Below, piece by piece: positions 39,776-44,506 of a stretch of DNA of 64,000 nt; the stretch's first letter is position 1, and the number at the start of each line of letters is the position of its first letter. Origin of the DNA: Parasphingopyxis sp. CP4 (lineage in GTDB: Bacteria > Pseudomonadota > Alphaproteobacteria > Sphingomonadales > Sphingomonadaceae); the NCBI RefSeq assembly GCF_013378055.1, contig NZ_CP051130.1:2792001-2856000 (forward strand). The letters are read 5' to 3'. The notes under the pieces are model-generated. The model had not been told where the DNA came from and ran no database searches. It saw only the letters and a list, made by a program, of their open reading frames with translations. The position numbers and the translations under genes are program-made.

Positions 39776-42085
39776 CTAATGCTTGTCCTCGTTGGACGGG
39801 CTCAACATGCCAGGTGAGATAAAGCCGATCGGGTTGAGTGCCAGCGAATCCTGCTTCAGCTTGGCCGCCATCAGCTCATATTCGCGTTCCATCTCGCTGG
39901 TCACGCTGGCGCGCATATCCGCAAGTGCCAGCTCGAAATCTTCCATCCCGACGCTTTCGGCATCGATCGATCGGCGCAAGGCATAGAGGCCCGCCCGCCG
40001 GGTCAGATCTTCCAGATCGGCCCCGGTGAAGCGTTCGGTGCGTTCAGCAAGTGAGTCGAGATCAACATCCTTGCCGAGCGGCATGGTCGATGTGTGGATC
40101 GCTAAAATGCGCCGACGCCCGGCTTCTTCAGGCACCGGAACATAGACCATTTCGTCAAATCGTCCGGGGCGGATCAGCGCCGGATCGATGAGGTTGGGCC
40201 GGTTGGTGGCACCGATGACAACCACGGATTGCAGCTCTTCCAGCCCATCCATCTCAGCAAGGATCGTATTGACGACCCGTTCGGTCACCTGTGGCTCGCC
40301 AAGGCCGCCTCCGCGAGCCGGTACAAGACTGTCCAGCTCGTCGAAGAAGATCACGGTCGGTGCAACCTGGCGTGCCCGGGCAAAGAGCCGGGCGATCTGC
40401 TGTTCACTCTCGCCATACCATTTGGACAAAAGGTCCGAGGATTTCGTGGCGATGAAATTGGCGTTGGATTCATGTGCGGTCGCCTTGGCGAGCAGCGTCT
40501 TGCCGGTGCCCGGCGGTCCATAGAGGAGGAAACCCTTGGCCGGGCGAATGCCGAGACGCCGAAACGCATCCGGGTCTTTCAGAGGAAGCTCGACGCCTTC
40601 CTTGAGGCGTTTTTGTACATCATCCAACCCGCCAATATCGTCCCAGCTCACATCGGGTGCCTGGACCATCACTTCGCGCAATGCGGATGGCTGGATGCGT
40701 TTCAACGCTTCGGTGAAATCACGGCGATCGACCTTGAGTTCGTCGAGAACTTCGGTGGGTACGGTGCGTTCTTCAAGGTTCAGCTTTGGCATGATGCGCC
40801 GCACGGCTTCGATGGCGGCCTCACGCGTCAGTGCACCGAGATCGGCGCCGACAAAGCCATAAGTCTGCCGGGCGAGCGCGTTCAGGCTGACATCGGGGGC
40901 CAGCGGCATGCCGCGCGTATGGATGGCGAGGATCTCGCGTCGACCCGCTTCGTCCGGCACGCCGATAATGATCTCGCGATCGAAACGACCTGGTCGCCGC
41001 AAGGCTTCATCGATCGCATCCGGGCGGTTGGTCGCCGCGACGACAATCAGATTGGCGCGCTTTTGCAGCCCGTCCATCAGGGTGAGCAGCTGGGCAACGA
41101 GGCGTTTTTCGGCCTCGCCAGCCGTTTTGTCGCGTTTGGGCGTGATCGAATCGATCTCGTCGATAAAGACGATCGAGGGTTGGGCCTCGGCCGCCTTTTC
41201 GAAGACTTCGCGCAGCTTCTTCTCGCTCTCGCCATAGGCGGAACCCATGATCTCCGGCCCGTTGATCAGGAAGAAATCGGCATCGCTCTCATTGGCGACC
41301 GCGCGGGCAAGCAGGGTCTTGCCCGTACCGGGCGGTCCATGGAGCAGAACGCCCTTGGGCGGTTCGACGCCAAGCCGTTGAAACAGTTCTGGATAGCGCA
41401 GAGGAAGCTCGACCATCTCGCGCACTTGGTCGATCGTCTCGCCAAGGCCACCAAGATCGTCATAGGTGACATCTGCACGCCGGGCTTCGGTAGGCTCGGT
41501 ATATTCGCCCTTTAATTCGACAGTGGTGTCTGCATCGATATGAACAATGCCCTTGGGCGTTGTCCCGGCAACAACCAGCCGCACTTCCTGCAGCGCATAG
41601 GCGGGCGCGTTCATCATCTGGCGCAGCTGGGGCGGCATATCGCCGCGCTCGACAGGGCGTTGGCCTGCGGTTGCGACAACATCGCCTTGCGTCAGCGGCT
41701 TCATGCCAAAGCTGCGTTTCAGCGCTTCGGTATTGCCGTGCAGTTTCAAATTGCGTTGGGCAGGTGCGAAAACGACGCGCTTGGCCGCCTGCGATTCGGT
41801 TTTCTCAACCGTCACGAAATCGCCAGAGCCGGCGCCGGCATTGGCGCGCTGCAGCCCGTCGATCCGCAAGATTGCCAGCCCCTCGTCATCCTTATAGGGG
41901 AGCACCGCCCGGGCAGGGGTCGTGCGTTTGCCAGTGATTGCAACCACATCACCCTCGGCCAGGCCCAGCGCTGTCATTGTTTCGCGCGACATGCGGGCAA
42001 GGCCGCGACCTGAATCTTCAGGGCGGGCATTGGCGACCTGCAGTTTGTGACCTTCGGTCGCGGGCGGGTTTTCGCTGTCAGCCAT
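39776..42085 (-). CDS. CDC48/VAT-type double AAA+ ATPase
   Basis: A 769-residue protein with the full archaeal/eukaryotic Cdc48 layout. It has an N-terminal double-psi barrel (about 13-100) and CDC48_2 domain (about 110-185). D1 has GPPGTGKT near 246-253 and IVFIDEID near 303. D2 has GPPGTGKT near 518-525 and VIFFDELD near 580; both carry arginine fingers in RPGRFD. It should unfold or extract proteins using ATP. The C-terminus (PSNEDKH) lacks the HbYX motif that docks archaeal forms on the proteasome. GGAG precedes the ATG. Most bacteria lack this family, but sphingomonads and relatives are known to carry it. Confidence 0.93.
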
Positions 42086-42180
42086 AAGGACTCCGTACTG
42101 TTGACGAAATCAACATAGGGTCTTGCAGGCCCGATGCGAACCATTTGACCGACGGAATATGATTTTGGCGGACCCGGGGC

Positions 42181-42216
42181 AAAAAAACGGGCCGACCAAA
42201 GAGGGGAGGTCGGCCC
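42181..42216 (-). terminator. Orphan intrinsic terminator of the small RNA
   Basis: On the minus strand GGGCCGACC pairs with GGTCGGCCC (9 bp, loop of 10) and is followed by G and seven T. No protein gene on this strand ends upstream of it. Confidence 0.85.
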
Positions 42217-42249
42217 GAAGGGTCTTAGGAGAGGATGCCTGTAAGGCCC
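42181..42249 (-). ncRNA. Probable trans-acting small RNA, suhB/MmgR-like
   Basis: The minus strand has a strong intrinsic terminator (42188-42216 with a 7-T tail at 42181-42187) but no minus-strand gene ends there: the only upstream gene is LysR, on the plus strand. Reading back, about 69 nt would form a short 5' hairpin (GCCU-UAC-AGGC, 42238-42248), an unpaired AUCCUCUCCUAAGACCC, and the terminator hairpin with UCCCCUCUUU in its loop. Both pyrimidine segments are anti-Shine-Dalgarno-like. This two-hairpin layout, size and CU-rich motifs resemble the alphaproteobacterial suhB/MmgR small RNAs. The start site is estimated from a weak promoter. A covariance model search has not been done. Confidence 0.55.
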
Positions 42250-42268
42250 GCCCTAATTGGGTTTCATT

Positions 42269-42318
42269 TTGCAATTGTGCAAGTGCGAAAAGCTTGCTAT
42301 GAATTGCAGAAATTGCAA
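42269..42318. promoter_or_regulatory. Paired TTGCA-N4/5-TGCAA sites, possible LysR operators
   Basis: TTGCA-ATTG-TGCAA lies at 42269-42282 and TTGCA-GAAAT-TGCAA at 42304-42318. A weaker TTGC-TGCA half-site pair follows near 42347-42357. They lie between the LysR gene and the small RNA on the other strand, where a LysR protein would control both itself and the divergent transcript. Confidence 0.5.
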
Positions 42319-42371
42319 CTCTCTTTGCGGCCCGCCCGGACAGAAGTTGCTATTGCAGTAGGAGCGCGCTG

Positions 42372-43301
42372 ATGCGAAGATTGCCGCCGCTAACCGCCAT
42401 AGAGGCCTTTGTCCAAGTCGCACGCCTAGGATCGGTAAAAGCGGCCGCCGAAGAGCTGGCCCTGTCCTCGCCCGCGTTAAGCCGTAGAGTCCAGAATTTA
42501 GAGCATTTTCTAGGTCGCGCCCTGTTTGAACGCCGTCATCATGCGATGGTTCTAACCGAAGATGGCGAAGCCCTTTTGACGCGGGTTTCCGGTCCCCTCG
42601 ATGAACTGGCGAACGCGATTGAGATGTCGACCGGCCAGGCGGATCTGGTGCGATTGCGGCTCGGAGTATTGCCACTTTTCGCATCGCAGCGCTTGATCGG
42701 CAAATTGCCCGAATTGCGTGAGCTGCATCCCGAGCTCCATATTGATATCGATACGGCAGCCCATGGCACAGCCCGATTGGGCGACGGTCTGGATGCGGCA
42801 ATCACGCTGGCCCAGACAATCGACCCCGGGCTCTACTCGCGCGAGATCGATCATAATGTCATTACGCCGATCGGCGCGCGCGGGCTGACCGTGCGGGGTG
42901 TTCCGGTAACCGAACCGGAGCAGCTTGCCGGGCAAACGATCCTTTTGCACCGTGATATGCCTGAGACATTCCACTATTGGCGTAACGCCATCGGCTTTCC
43001 CAACCTGGAACCGGCAGCAGAAGACCATTTCGATTCCGGTCAGTTGATGCTGGACGCCGCTGCCCAGGGCCTGGGCGTGGCCTTCATGCTCGATTCCCAT
43101 CTCCACGATGCGGCGGATGATCGGCTGGTGCGCTTGTTCGATACGAAGATTGAAAGCCCGTACAGCTATTGGTTCACCTGCCGACGGTCAGCGTTGCGCC
43201 GCAAACCGGTGAAGCTGTTCCATGATTGGCTGTTCGCGCGGGTATGTCGCCAGGCGACGGGTCAGCCAGCCGCTGGCGATTCTATTGCTGCAGCAATTTA
43301 G
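42372..43301 (+). CDS. LysR family transcriptional regulator
   Basis: A 309-residue LysR protein of the GcvA-like group. The N-terminal winged helix reads LPPLTAIEAFVQVARLGSVK then ELALSSPALSRRVQNLEHFL. The effector domain starts near 95 (LRLGVLPLFASQRLI) and includes GLGVAFMLDSHLHD. Its 3' end overlaps the end of the convergent SDR gene by 20 bases. The 45-codon frame upstream that ends in its start codon (TGATG) is noted under rejected items. Target genes are unknown; the divergent small RNA is a candidate. Confidence 0.92.
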   Translation: MRRLPPLTAIEAFVQVARLGSVKAAAEELALSSPALSRRVQNLEHFLGRALFERRHHAMVLTEDGEALLTRVSGPLDELANAIEMSTGQADLVRLRLGVLPLFASQRLIGKLPELRELHPELHIDIDTAAHGTARLGDGLDAAITLAQTIDPGLYSREIDHNVITPIGARGLTVRGVPVTEPEQLAGQTILLHRDMPETFHYWRNAIGFPNLEPAAEDHFDSGQLMLDAAAQGLGVAFMLDSHLHDAADDRLVRLFDTKIESPYSYWFTCRRSALRRKPVKLFHDWLFARVCRQATGQPAAGDSIAAAI

Positions 43302-44043
43302 CGATCTCGCGGCTTACGCTGCGCGGTGACATGCGGTTCGATTGAACCATTGCTTTGTTGAGGAAACCGGGAACCACAATCGCCTTGTTCTTGGCAAGAC
43401 CGGCAAGGCCTGCCTCGACAACGCGTTCCGGTTCGCCCGCGAATTTCTCAAACAAGGTGGTATCGGTCATGTTTGCACGATGGGCGAACTCGGTCTTTGT
43501 CGCACCGGGGCATAGTGCCGTCACCGCGATATTATGCGGCATCAACTCTTCATGCAGGGCCTCGGTAAGCGACAGGACGAACGCCTTGCTGGCATAATAG
43601 ACCGCCATACCAGGCCCCGCCTGAAACGCTGCGGTAGACGCGACATTAAGGATTGCACCGCCGCCATTGGCGATCATGCTTGGAACGACCCGGTGGCAAA
43701 GCTGTGCGACCGCAATGCTGTTCACCTGGATCATGTCGACCTGATCGCCAATCGGCAGCATATGGAAATCGCCGCGCGCGCCAAAGCCTGCATTATTGAT
43801 CAGCGTACCAATATGCGCGCCTGAATCCTCGATCGTCTGCACGATCTCATCGGCGGCGTCATAATCGCTCAGATCTTCAGTAATGACGATCGTGTCGGGA
43901 CCGAGCTCTTCGGCCAGTTTATCGAGACGATCCTTGCGCCGCGCGACGAGCGCGATCTTGTCACCACGCTTCGCGCAGGCCCTGGCAAACAATCTGCCAA
44001 GACCAGCAGAAGCGCCAGTGATCAACGTATAGGGATTGGCCAT
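43282..44043 (-). CDS. SDR family NAD(P)-dependent oxidoreductase, DltE/YqjQ-like
   Basis: A 253-residue classical SDR with TGASAGLG at 8-15, NNAGFGARG, a Ser in NVASTAAF, and YYASK as the catalytic pair. C-terminal VVPGFLNKAMVQSNRMSPRS is typical of the group often annotated as DltE-like or general short-chain dehydrogenase. The frame stays open to 44577, but that part is antisense to the cyclophilin gene, so I start at the ATG at 44043. The gene 16 bases upstream encodes the cyclophilin. Substrate unknown. Confidence 0.9.
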   Translation of the reverse strand: MANPYTLITGASAGLGRLFARACAKRGDKIALVARRKDRLDKLAEELGPDTIVITEDLSDYDAADEIVQTIEDSGAHIGTLINNAGFGARGDFHMLPIGDQVDMIQVNSIAVAQLCHRVVPSMIANGGGAILNVASTAAFQAGPGMAVYYASKAFVLSLTEALHEELMPHNIAVTALCPGATKTEFAHRANMTDTTLFEKFAGEPERVVEAGLAGLAKNKAIVVPGFLNKAMVQSNRMSPRSVSREIAKLLQQ

Positions 44044-44059: not shown

Positions 44060-44506
44060 TTAGCCGACAGTCGTCGACTTGATGACGCCCGGGGTTGCCG
44101 GTGGTTCGCCTTTGGGCAGCGCATCGATATGCTCCATCCCTTCGGTAACCTGGCCCCATACGGTGTATTGGCCGTCAAGAAATTCTGCATCGTCAAAGCA
44201 GATGAAGAATTGGCTGTTCGCGCTGTTCGGGTCCTGGGCCCGCGCCATCGAGCAAGTGCCGCGCACATGCGGTTCGCTGTTGAATTCCTGTTCAAGGTTC
44301 GGCTTGTCCGATCCATGCATGCCAGTGCCCGTTGGATCGCCGCCCTGCGCCATGAAGCCGGGAATGACGCGGTGGAAGACGACACCGTCATAGAAGCCGT
44401 CCTGTGCCAGCTCGGAAATCCGGGCAACATGGTTCGGCGCCAGATCGGGGCGCAGCTTGATGACGACATCGCCGCTATCGAGCGAAATGGTAAGGGTATC
44501 GGACAT
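44060..44506 (-). CDS. Cyclophilin-type peptidyl-prolyl cis-trans isomerase
   Basis: A 148-residue single-domain cyclophilin without a signal peptide, so probably cytoplasmic (PpiB-like). The active-site stretch FHRVIPGFMAQGGDPTGTG includes the catalytic Arg, and ANSQFFICFDDAEFLDGQYTVWG is the second signature. The insert MHGSDKPNLEQEFNSEPHVR is common in alphaproteobacterial forms. AGGAG lies before the ATG. It probably forms an operon with the SDR gene downstream. Confidence 0.94.
   Translation of the reverse strand: MSDTLTISLDSGDVVIKLRPDLAPNHVARISELAQDGFYDGVVFHRVIPGFMAQGGDPTGTGMHGSDKPNLEQEFNSEPHVRGTCSMARAQDPNSANSQFFICFDDAEFLDGQYTVWGQVTEGMEHIDALPKGEPPATPGVIKSTTVG

Follow-up and report, generated by a model that had tools for sequence, protein, structure and literature searches.

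A candidate LysR-linked small RNA of the alphaR8/suhB family with a conserved promoter palindrome in sphingomonads

The minus strand of the window (the whole 64,000-nt stretch of DNA analysed here) carries, at 42181–42248, an RNA of the alphaR8/suhB family whose seed is of the sphingomonad type. We consider it probable that this is a trans-acting sRNA of the family of MmgR and SisA-D, of sphingomonad type, with its own promoter and terminator, which pairs with ribosome-binding sites and is activated by the product of a divergent LysR-type gene. The family match, the structure, the synteny, the conserved promoter module and the co-occurrence of LysR and RNA are computational findings; beyond these, we infer transcription, LysR binding and its direction, the role of Hfq and the targets. 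Neither the RNA family nor its mechanism is new, and its members were already known from sphingomonads. A LysR input to alphaR8 RNAs did not appear in the literature searched, a search that left most subscription papers outside its scope, and we do not claim that no such report exists.

Minus-strand 42248–42181 is predicted to fold into a hairpin of 4 bp, an open stretch of 19 nt starting AUCCUCUCCUAA and a 10-bp terminator followed by U7. The segment folds at -26.6 kcal/mol, whereas its shuffles average -15.7 (z -4.0), and none of 200 shuffles is equally low. With flanks included (42254–42174), the minimum-energy fold contains a competing long-range pairing and z is -2.8. The 5' hairpin GCCUUACAGGC occupies 42237–42247 and the open seed AUCCUCUCCUAA 42225–42236, unpaired in both the single-sequence fold and the alignment fold, within a whole unpaired stretch of 42236–42218. 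The terminator stem-loop with its 10-bp stem spans 42188–42217, its 10-nt loop UCCCCUCUUU, a second CU-rich segment, spans 42198–42207, and the U7 tract lies at 42181–42187. These parts make up the alphaR8/suhB layout of a 5' hairpin, a single-stranded seed and a Rho-independent terminator. The predicted transcript of ~68 nt has its 5' end placed at ~42248 from the position of the -10 element. In alignment A1 (56 copies selected from 110 non-redundant ones), 10 of 13 predicted pairs show two-sided changes that keep the pair, all of them in the terminator stem. Since the search pattern itself constrains hairpin and seed, their near-invariance in A1 is in part built in and was not counted as evidence. 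Model R1 scores the window copy at 71.2 bits, a value that is not independent, since this copy is one of the 56 rows used to build R1.

The sequence-only reading had described a 5' hairpin, an open segment and a terminator with a CU-rich loop, and refolding reproduces this layout with coordinates right to within a base or two. It had further counted two anti-Shine-Dalgarno segments. The first, AUCCUCUCC, is indeed widespread in sphingomonads, though fixed by the search pattern. The second is a feature of the genus only, where 8 of 10 loci carry it by motif test; outside the genus, inspection by eye shows mostly short terminator loops that are not rich in CU.

A scan of the window against Rfam at the gathering threshold returned no match. 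At a relaxed threshold the sole match in 41000–43600 is RF00519 (suhB/MmgR) at 42254–42174 on the minus strand, with an E value of 2.4e-6 for 2.6 kb; the match is full-length (model positions 1–77 of 77), and its 40.8 bits lie 0.2 bits under the gathering score of 41 bits. Across the genome, this copy ranks second among 21 RF00519 matches at E ≤10, after L001 (43.7 bits) and before L003 (32.2 bits), the next match reaching 19.3 bits. Ten of the 16 loci tested pass gathering; the syntenic genus-mate copies L044, L050, L053, L054 and L057 and the paralogue L001 do so at 41.3–44.7 bits, and the syntenic copy L042 falls below. We therefore read the miss of the window copy as a threshold effect, since five of its syntenic copies and its paralogue pass, and an annotation relying on Rfam thresholds would be expected to miss this sRNA. 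The assignment to alphaR8/suhB follows from the fold, the full-length match and the passing syntenic copies and paralogue. The suhB/MmgR assignment, for which the sequence-only reading had named a covariance-model scan as the check, is thereby upheld. A score just under gathering could also befit an inactive relic, or a plain terminator with no functional RNA behind it. We hold this to be extremely improbable, as the terminator covaries, the promoter boxes described below are kept across the family, and the palindrome among them is perfect in the window copy.

In the same genome, L001 (1501–1576; G000:C1:1887945-1888020) has the seed and promoter elements of the window copy, and L003 (1501–1582; G000:C1:449807-449888), with the core CUCCCUCCCU, adjoins an FGase-family gene, a location that fits the canonical alphaR8 position described in PMC12559287. 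The FGase linkage typical for most species is absent at the window copy, whose neighbours are CDC48 and LysR genes. The same paper offers a close parallel in SisA-D of Caulobacter crescentus: there, too, a genome holds several alphaR8 siblings with an anti-SD seed, one of them beside the FGase gene, and SisB-D lie away from that gene, as does the window copy. MmgR, by the same source, is single-copy in S. meliloti; it shares the hairpin, the open anti-SD segment and the terminator with the window RNA. The Caulobacter RNAs differ from ours in two respects: (I) their 10-mer core UUUCCUCCCU, as given in PMC12559287, is absent from the window copy, which has AUCCUCUCCUAA as its seed and at the corresponding segment GCAUCCUCUCCUAA, anti-SD in character; and (II) PMC12559287 reports SisA-D as lacking a common upstream motif, whereas the sphingomonad copies share two boxes.

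Among 60 genomes (own included), 59 match RF00519 at E ≤1 and 49 score above gathering. Only the above-gathering counts are informative, since 12 of 14 control genomes also match at E ≤1, with one above gathering. The seed-plus-hairpin pattern, with AUCCUCUCCYA fixed, occurs in at least 120 stretches of genome contigs; among the matches listed, we take the titles that name a group finer than class to be those of Sphingomonadales genera or families. Several genomes hold many copies (seven matches in G202, six in G157), and at three loci (L078, L098, L120) two copies lie within 8 kb of each other.

Downstream of the sRNA on the same strand, and 95 nt beyond its terminator, starts the gene of a CDC48-family AAA ATPase (39776–42085, minus strand; TIGR01243, 926.6 bits against a cutoff of 802.65). 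The terminator had been described as strong, on the minus strand and belonging to no protein gene; this gene had gone unmentioned. The shared strand and short distance, together with the presence of CDC48 within 1.2 kb of the RNA in 57 of 148 copies, would suit a 5' leader or attenuator of CDC48 in place of a separate sRNA. Such a leader is very unlikely, however. The other 91 copies are without CDC48 in that range (some available loci ending sooner), and three genomes (G010, G033, G101) have the RNA and no CDC48 match at E 1e-60. In addition, CDC48 has a promoter-like element of its own 3' of the terminator, GGTTCGCA...CCTATGT at 42113–42142 on the minus strand, which is found in 9 of the 10 loci of the genus; L054, the remaining one, has a diverged version, CCTCGCA...CTTATGT. 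The paralogue L001 sits elsewhere with the same seed and promoter elements, and the alphaR8/suhB family is known as trans-acting. We discarded a leader or attenuator on account of CDC48's own element and the copies lacking a nearby CDC48 gene. As a functional partner CDC48 was also set aside, as its presence tracks that of the RNA less often than the presence of LysR, in a comparison that counts few independent pairs.

Candidate promoter elements of the RNA can be read from the minus strand. A putative -10, CAATTA (42254–42259), lies 17 nt from a putative -35, TTGCAC (42277–42282). The -35 is overlapped by the conserved element TTTTCGCACTTGCACAA (42275–42291), which is of the TTCGCACTTGC type and occurs as an exact 17-mer once in the genome. 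Further upstream lies the palindrome TTGCAATTTCTGCAA (TTGCA-N5-TGCAA, 42304–42318), a candidate LysR box. We compared these elements over 148 unique copies from 156 rows, 8 having been dropped as duplicates or for short flanks. At ≤2 mismatches, the palindrome is found in 140 of the 148 and lies between -72 and -70, counted from the hairpin start, in 128 of them; TTCGCACTTGC is found in 138, with 133 at -43 to -41. Letter shuffles match anywhere at this stringency in 4.5% and 1.3% of cases, respectively. The copies sit in different neighbourhoods, and they are related by descent, so that these counts are not independent. Both boxes are absent from the FGase-linked copy L003. We note that the palindrome and the TTCGCACTTGC element are equally constant, and that the latter, over the -35, is kept in three LysR-less genomes from which the palindrome is missing.

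The palindrome contains a T-N11-A dyad, as in a LysR–sRNA pair, upstream of the sRNA's -35, with its centre ~63 nt before the predicted start, the usual place for a LysR-type site. It is separated by 53 nt from the start of a divergent gene (42372–43301, plus strand) encoding a LysR-type regulator (Pfam HTH_1 and LysR_substrate), GcvA-like and a candidate activator. The GcvA model is the nearest one for this protein but scores 188.5 bits against a cutoff of 288, and a search of solved structures gave one match at E ≤1e-20, to 8y6u, a glycine cleavage system activator. A LysR homologue at E ≤1e-60 is present in 29 of 60 genomes (own included), the other 28 at 51–91% identity and all in the window's family. 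The RNA adjoins it in 17 of these 29, own included, and LysR lies within 1.2 kb of the RNA in 41 of 148 copies. In LysR-bearing genomes, the palindrome is in place in 27 of 28 copies, namely in all 11 beside LysR and in 16 of the 17 that are not. The conserved promoter palindrome appears to belong to the adjacent LysR-type regulator.

The LysR genes that are not beside the RNA were also considered. At one of these loci, L206, the upstream region is unreadable; among the 11 readable ones, 5 have a palindrome (≤2 mismatches) within 300 nt upstream, and 6 have no such box in that range. Shuffles equalled these five upstream palindromes in 17, 11, 1, 1 and 11 of 200 trials, a weak signal that LysR may regulate its own gene through such a box. 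At two loci (L203, L213), LysR is bordered on its 3' side by the end of a frame that resembles, by eye, the cyclophilin-like frame at window 44060–44506, consistent with the unlinked LysR genes being orthologues.

Co-occurrence across the family is consistent with a link between the two genes. With LysR taken at E ≤1e-60 and a strong RNA match defined by the model built here at E ≤1e-8, a cut set once the table had been seen, a strong match is found in 162 of 163 genomes with LysR and in 7 of 36 without, among 199 family genomes (Fisher 4e-27, uncorrected). The table was sorted by hand, with 16 of the 36 LysR-less genomes taken as the remainder. At a relaxed RNA cut of E 1e-4 the figures are 162 of 163 against 20 of 36. 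The sole LysR-bearing exception, G114, is 66% complete. On an rpoB tree of 28 hand-picked family genomes and one outgroup (G016 was left out, its rpoB being in two pieces), there are 5 changes in LysR and 4 in the RNA, and in independent pairs the RNA follows LysR in 3 of 4 with none opposite (p 0.25). As the tree holds only 4–5 changes, the co-occurrence points to a functional link in a suggestive way and is not proof.

Genomes without LysR offer a natural experiment on the palindrome. We inspected 20 RNA matches in 16 of them. In three that are 99% complete (G176, G194, G227), the seed is kept and TTCGCACTTGC is present with ≤1 mismatch, whereas the palindrome is absent; two of these (G176, G227) belong to one genus, and only the RNA of G176 passes Rfam gathering. 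Set against the 27 of 28 copies in LysR-bearing genomes, this 0 of 3 gives a Fisher p of 0.0009, uncorrected. Four more genomes (G125, G167, G174, G207) have no LysR match, yet 6 of their 7 copies have the palindrome; these genomes are less complete (94, 77, 90 and 70%, respectively) or fragmented, and their LysR may lie in the missing sequence. The case of G131 counts against the LysR model unless a LysR exists there below the cut-off: this genome is 100% complete and has no LysR at E 1e-60, and at one of its two weak matches the palindrome stands 29 nt before the TTCGC element, as elsewhere. The RNA at that palindrome is of another seed type. Genome groups g4, g6, g21 and g85 have this other type too, carrying AUCCUCCCCAAGGAU; none of their copies has a palindrome at the usual place except the one in G131. 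At eight loci of LysR-less family genomes (L289, L290, L291, L292, L294, L296, L297, L300) the RNA is of a different alphaR8-like type, GAUCCUCCCCAAGGAU; here a hairpin with a CU-rich loop may be closed by AUCC/GGAU.

The sequence-only reading had guessed that the LysR gene and the RNA are a regulator and its output. This guess gains support from the divergent linkage, the phase-locked palindrome, the co-occurrence and the absence of the palindrome in the three near-complete LysR-less genomes that keep the RNA. It could nonetheless be that LysR is a mere neighbour and that the same sRNA answers through the palindrome to a different protein, such as a PhaR-like one responsive to PHB or a regulator tied to growth rate. 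The box that persists in G131, and the 12 of 29 LysR-bearing genomes in which LysR is not beside the RNA, would both fit. So would the inputs of alphaR8 RNAs elsewhere: PhaR represses mmgR in S. meliloti, and MmgR is controlled by AniA/PhaR and NtrC, unlike the LysR input proposed here. A PhaR-like core, YGCRNYGCR, derived after PMC12542648 and PMC6201568, occurs within 32 nt 5' of the RNA in 44 of 148 copies, whereas 66 of 7,700 shuffles contain it. The palindrome itself, however, differs from the PhaR consensus TGCRNYGCASMA in its 5-nt spacer and is positioned at about -63. Its absence in the three near-complete LysR-less genomes, which keep the other element, is likewise at odds with a regulator other than LysR, and the 32 nt before the window RNA hold no PhaR-like core. 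We consider control by another regulator possible but doubtful. For the window copy, PhaR input was rejected on the absence of the core, common as the core is in other copies; for many of the sphingomonad copies PHB input is likely, given the repression of mmgR by PhaR in S. meliloti and the core in 44 of 148.

Returning to activation by LysR, the elements above suggest the following course of events. A sigma70-like promoter would drive the ~68-nt sRNA, which would end at its own terminator. The divergent LysR-type regulator, bound to TTGCA-N5-TGCAA ~63 nt upstream, would most likely activate its transcription. Probably together with Hfq, the open AUCCUCUCCUAA would then cover ribosome-binding sites of the UUAGGAGAGGAU kind, so that translation would fall. 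Hfq-aided translational repression is proposed by analogy with S. granuli SuhB and Caulobacter SisA. The same LysR probably drives the paralogue L001 but not the FGase-linked L003. Whether one LysR controls the whole sphingomonad alphaR8 set through the shared box as a single regulon, with a second factor reading TTCGCACTTGC and PhaR adding a PHB signal in ~30% of copies, we judge to be an even question. Such a regulon would be unlike Caulobacter, where alphaR8 siblings have unrelated promoters.

Among the closest known systems is SuhB of Sphingopyxis granuli TFA: PMC6563040 describes it as 61 nt long, repressing translation of thnR together with Hfq and raised in level at high growth rate. 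It shares with our copies the sphingomonad host, the suhB family name and the size, 55–71 nt among 60 of 110 copies listed. For suhB transcription, the passages of PMC6563040 covered name no regulator beyond growth rate and PHB, and in the literature covered MmgR (PhaR/AniA, NtrC) is the only alphaR8/suhB RNA with named inputs. AbcR1 (alphar15) is a known case of an anti-SD sRNA dependent on an adjacent LysR gene: LsrB/VtlR, a neighbouring LysR, controls this RNA via a LysR-type site at -61 to -49, as described in PMC8844928. The adjacency is shared with the window. By the same source, AbcR1 is a larger RNA (121 nt, against ~68 nt here) and the LsrB consensus is GCAT-N3-TG-N3-T, against TTGCA-N5-TGCAA here. 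If the LysR box is real, the window would add another LysR and anti-SD sRNA pair to LsrB/VtlR-AbcR1. In alphaproteobacteria, alphaR8/suhB RNAs link carbon storage with carbon-source choice, and a real box would also offer a concrete, easily tested switch for carbon catabolite repression in sphingomonads, which are used in pollutant degradation.

Exact palindromes occur at five sites in the genome: the window's, three inside other frames, and one between frames (L223). A LysR regulon drawn from the palindrome alone was rejected, three of the four other sites being inside frames and L223 lacking the second element at the usual spacing. The reversed pattern used as control for this count has a different dinucleotide composition, which disqualifies it as a fair background. 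We note that the L223 site (1040–1054; G000:C1:475840-475854) stands just before a 307-codon frame and is a possible further LysR target.

The seed AUCCUCUCCUAA is complementary to the Shine-Dalgarno-like UUAGGAGAGGAU and able to extend into an AUG. Its exact complement AGGAGAGGA is no more frequent in the genome than in the control, with 15 occurrences against 15, and two of the genomic ones are the RNAs' own antisense. GGAGAGGATG occurs 8 times against 2 in the control; two of these are again the antisense strands of the RNAs themselves, and at the other six the ATG starts frames of 148, 65, 46, 18, 7 and 1 codons. Exact complements of the seed therefore do not point to a target set. Ahead of the ATG of a frame of at least 60 codons, AGGAGAGGA is found twice, at L306 (6 nt, 308 codons) and at L313 (1 nt, 192 codons). 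The L306 site (G000:C1:1453173-1453181), perfectly complementary to part of the seed, stands as a single target candidate, and its 308-codon frame is presumably SMP-30-like.
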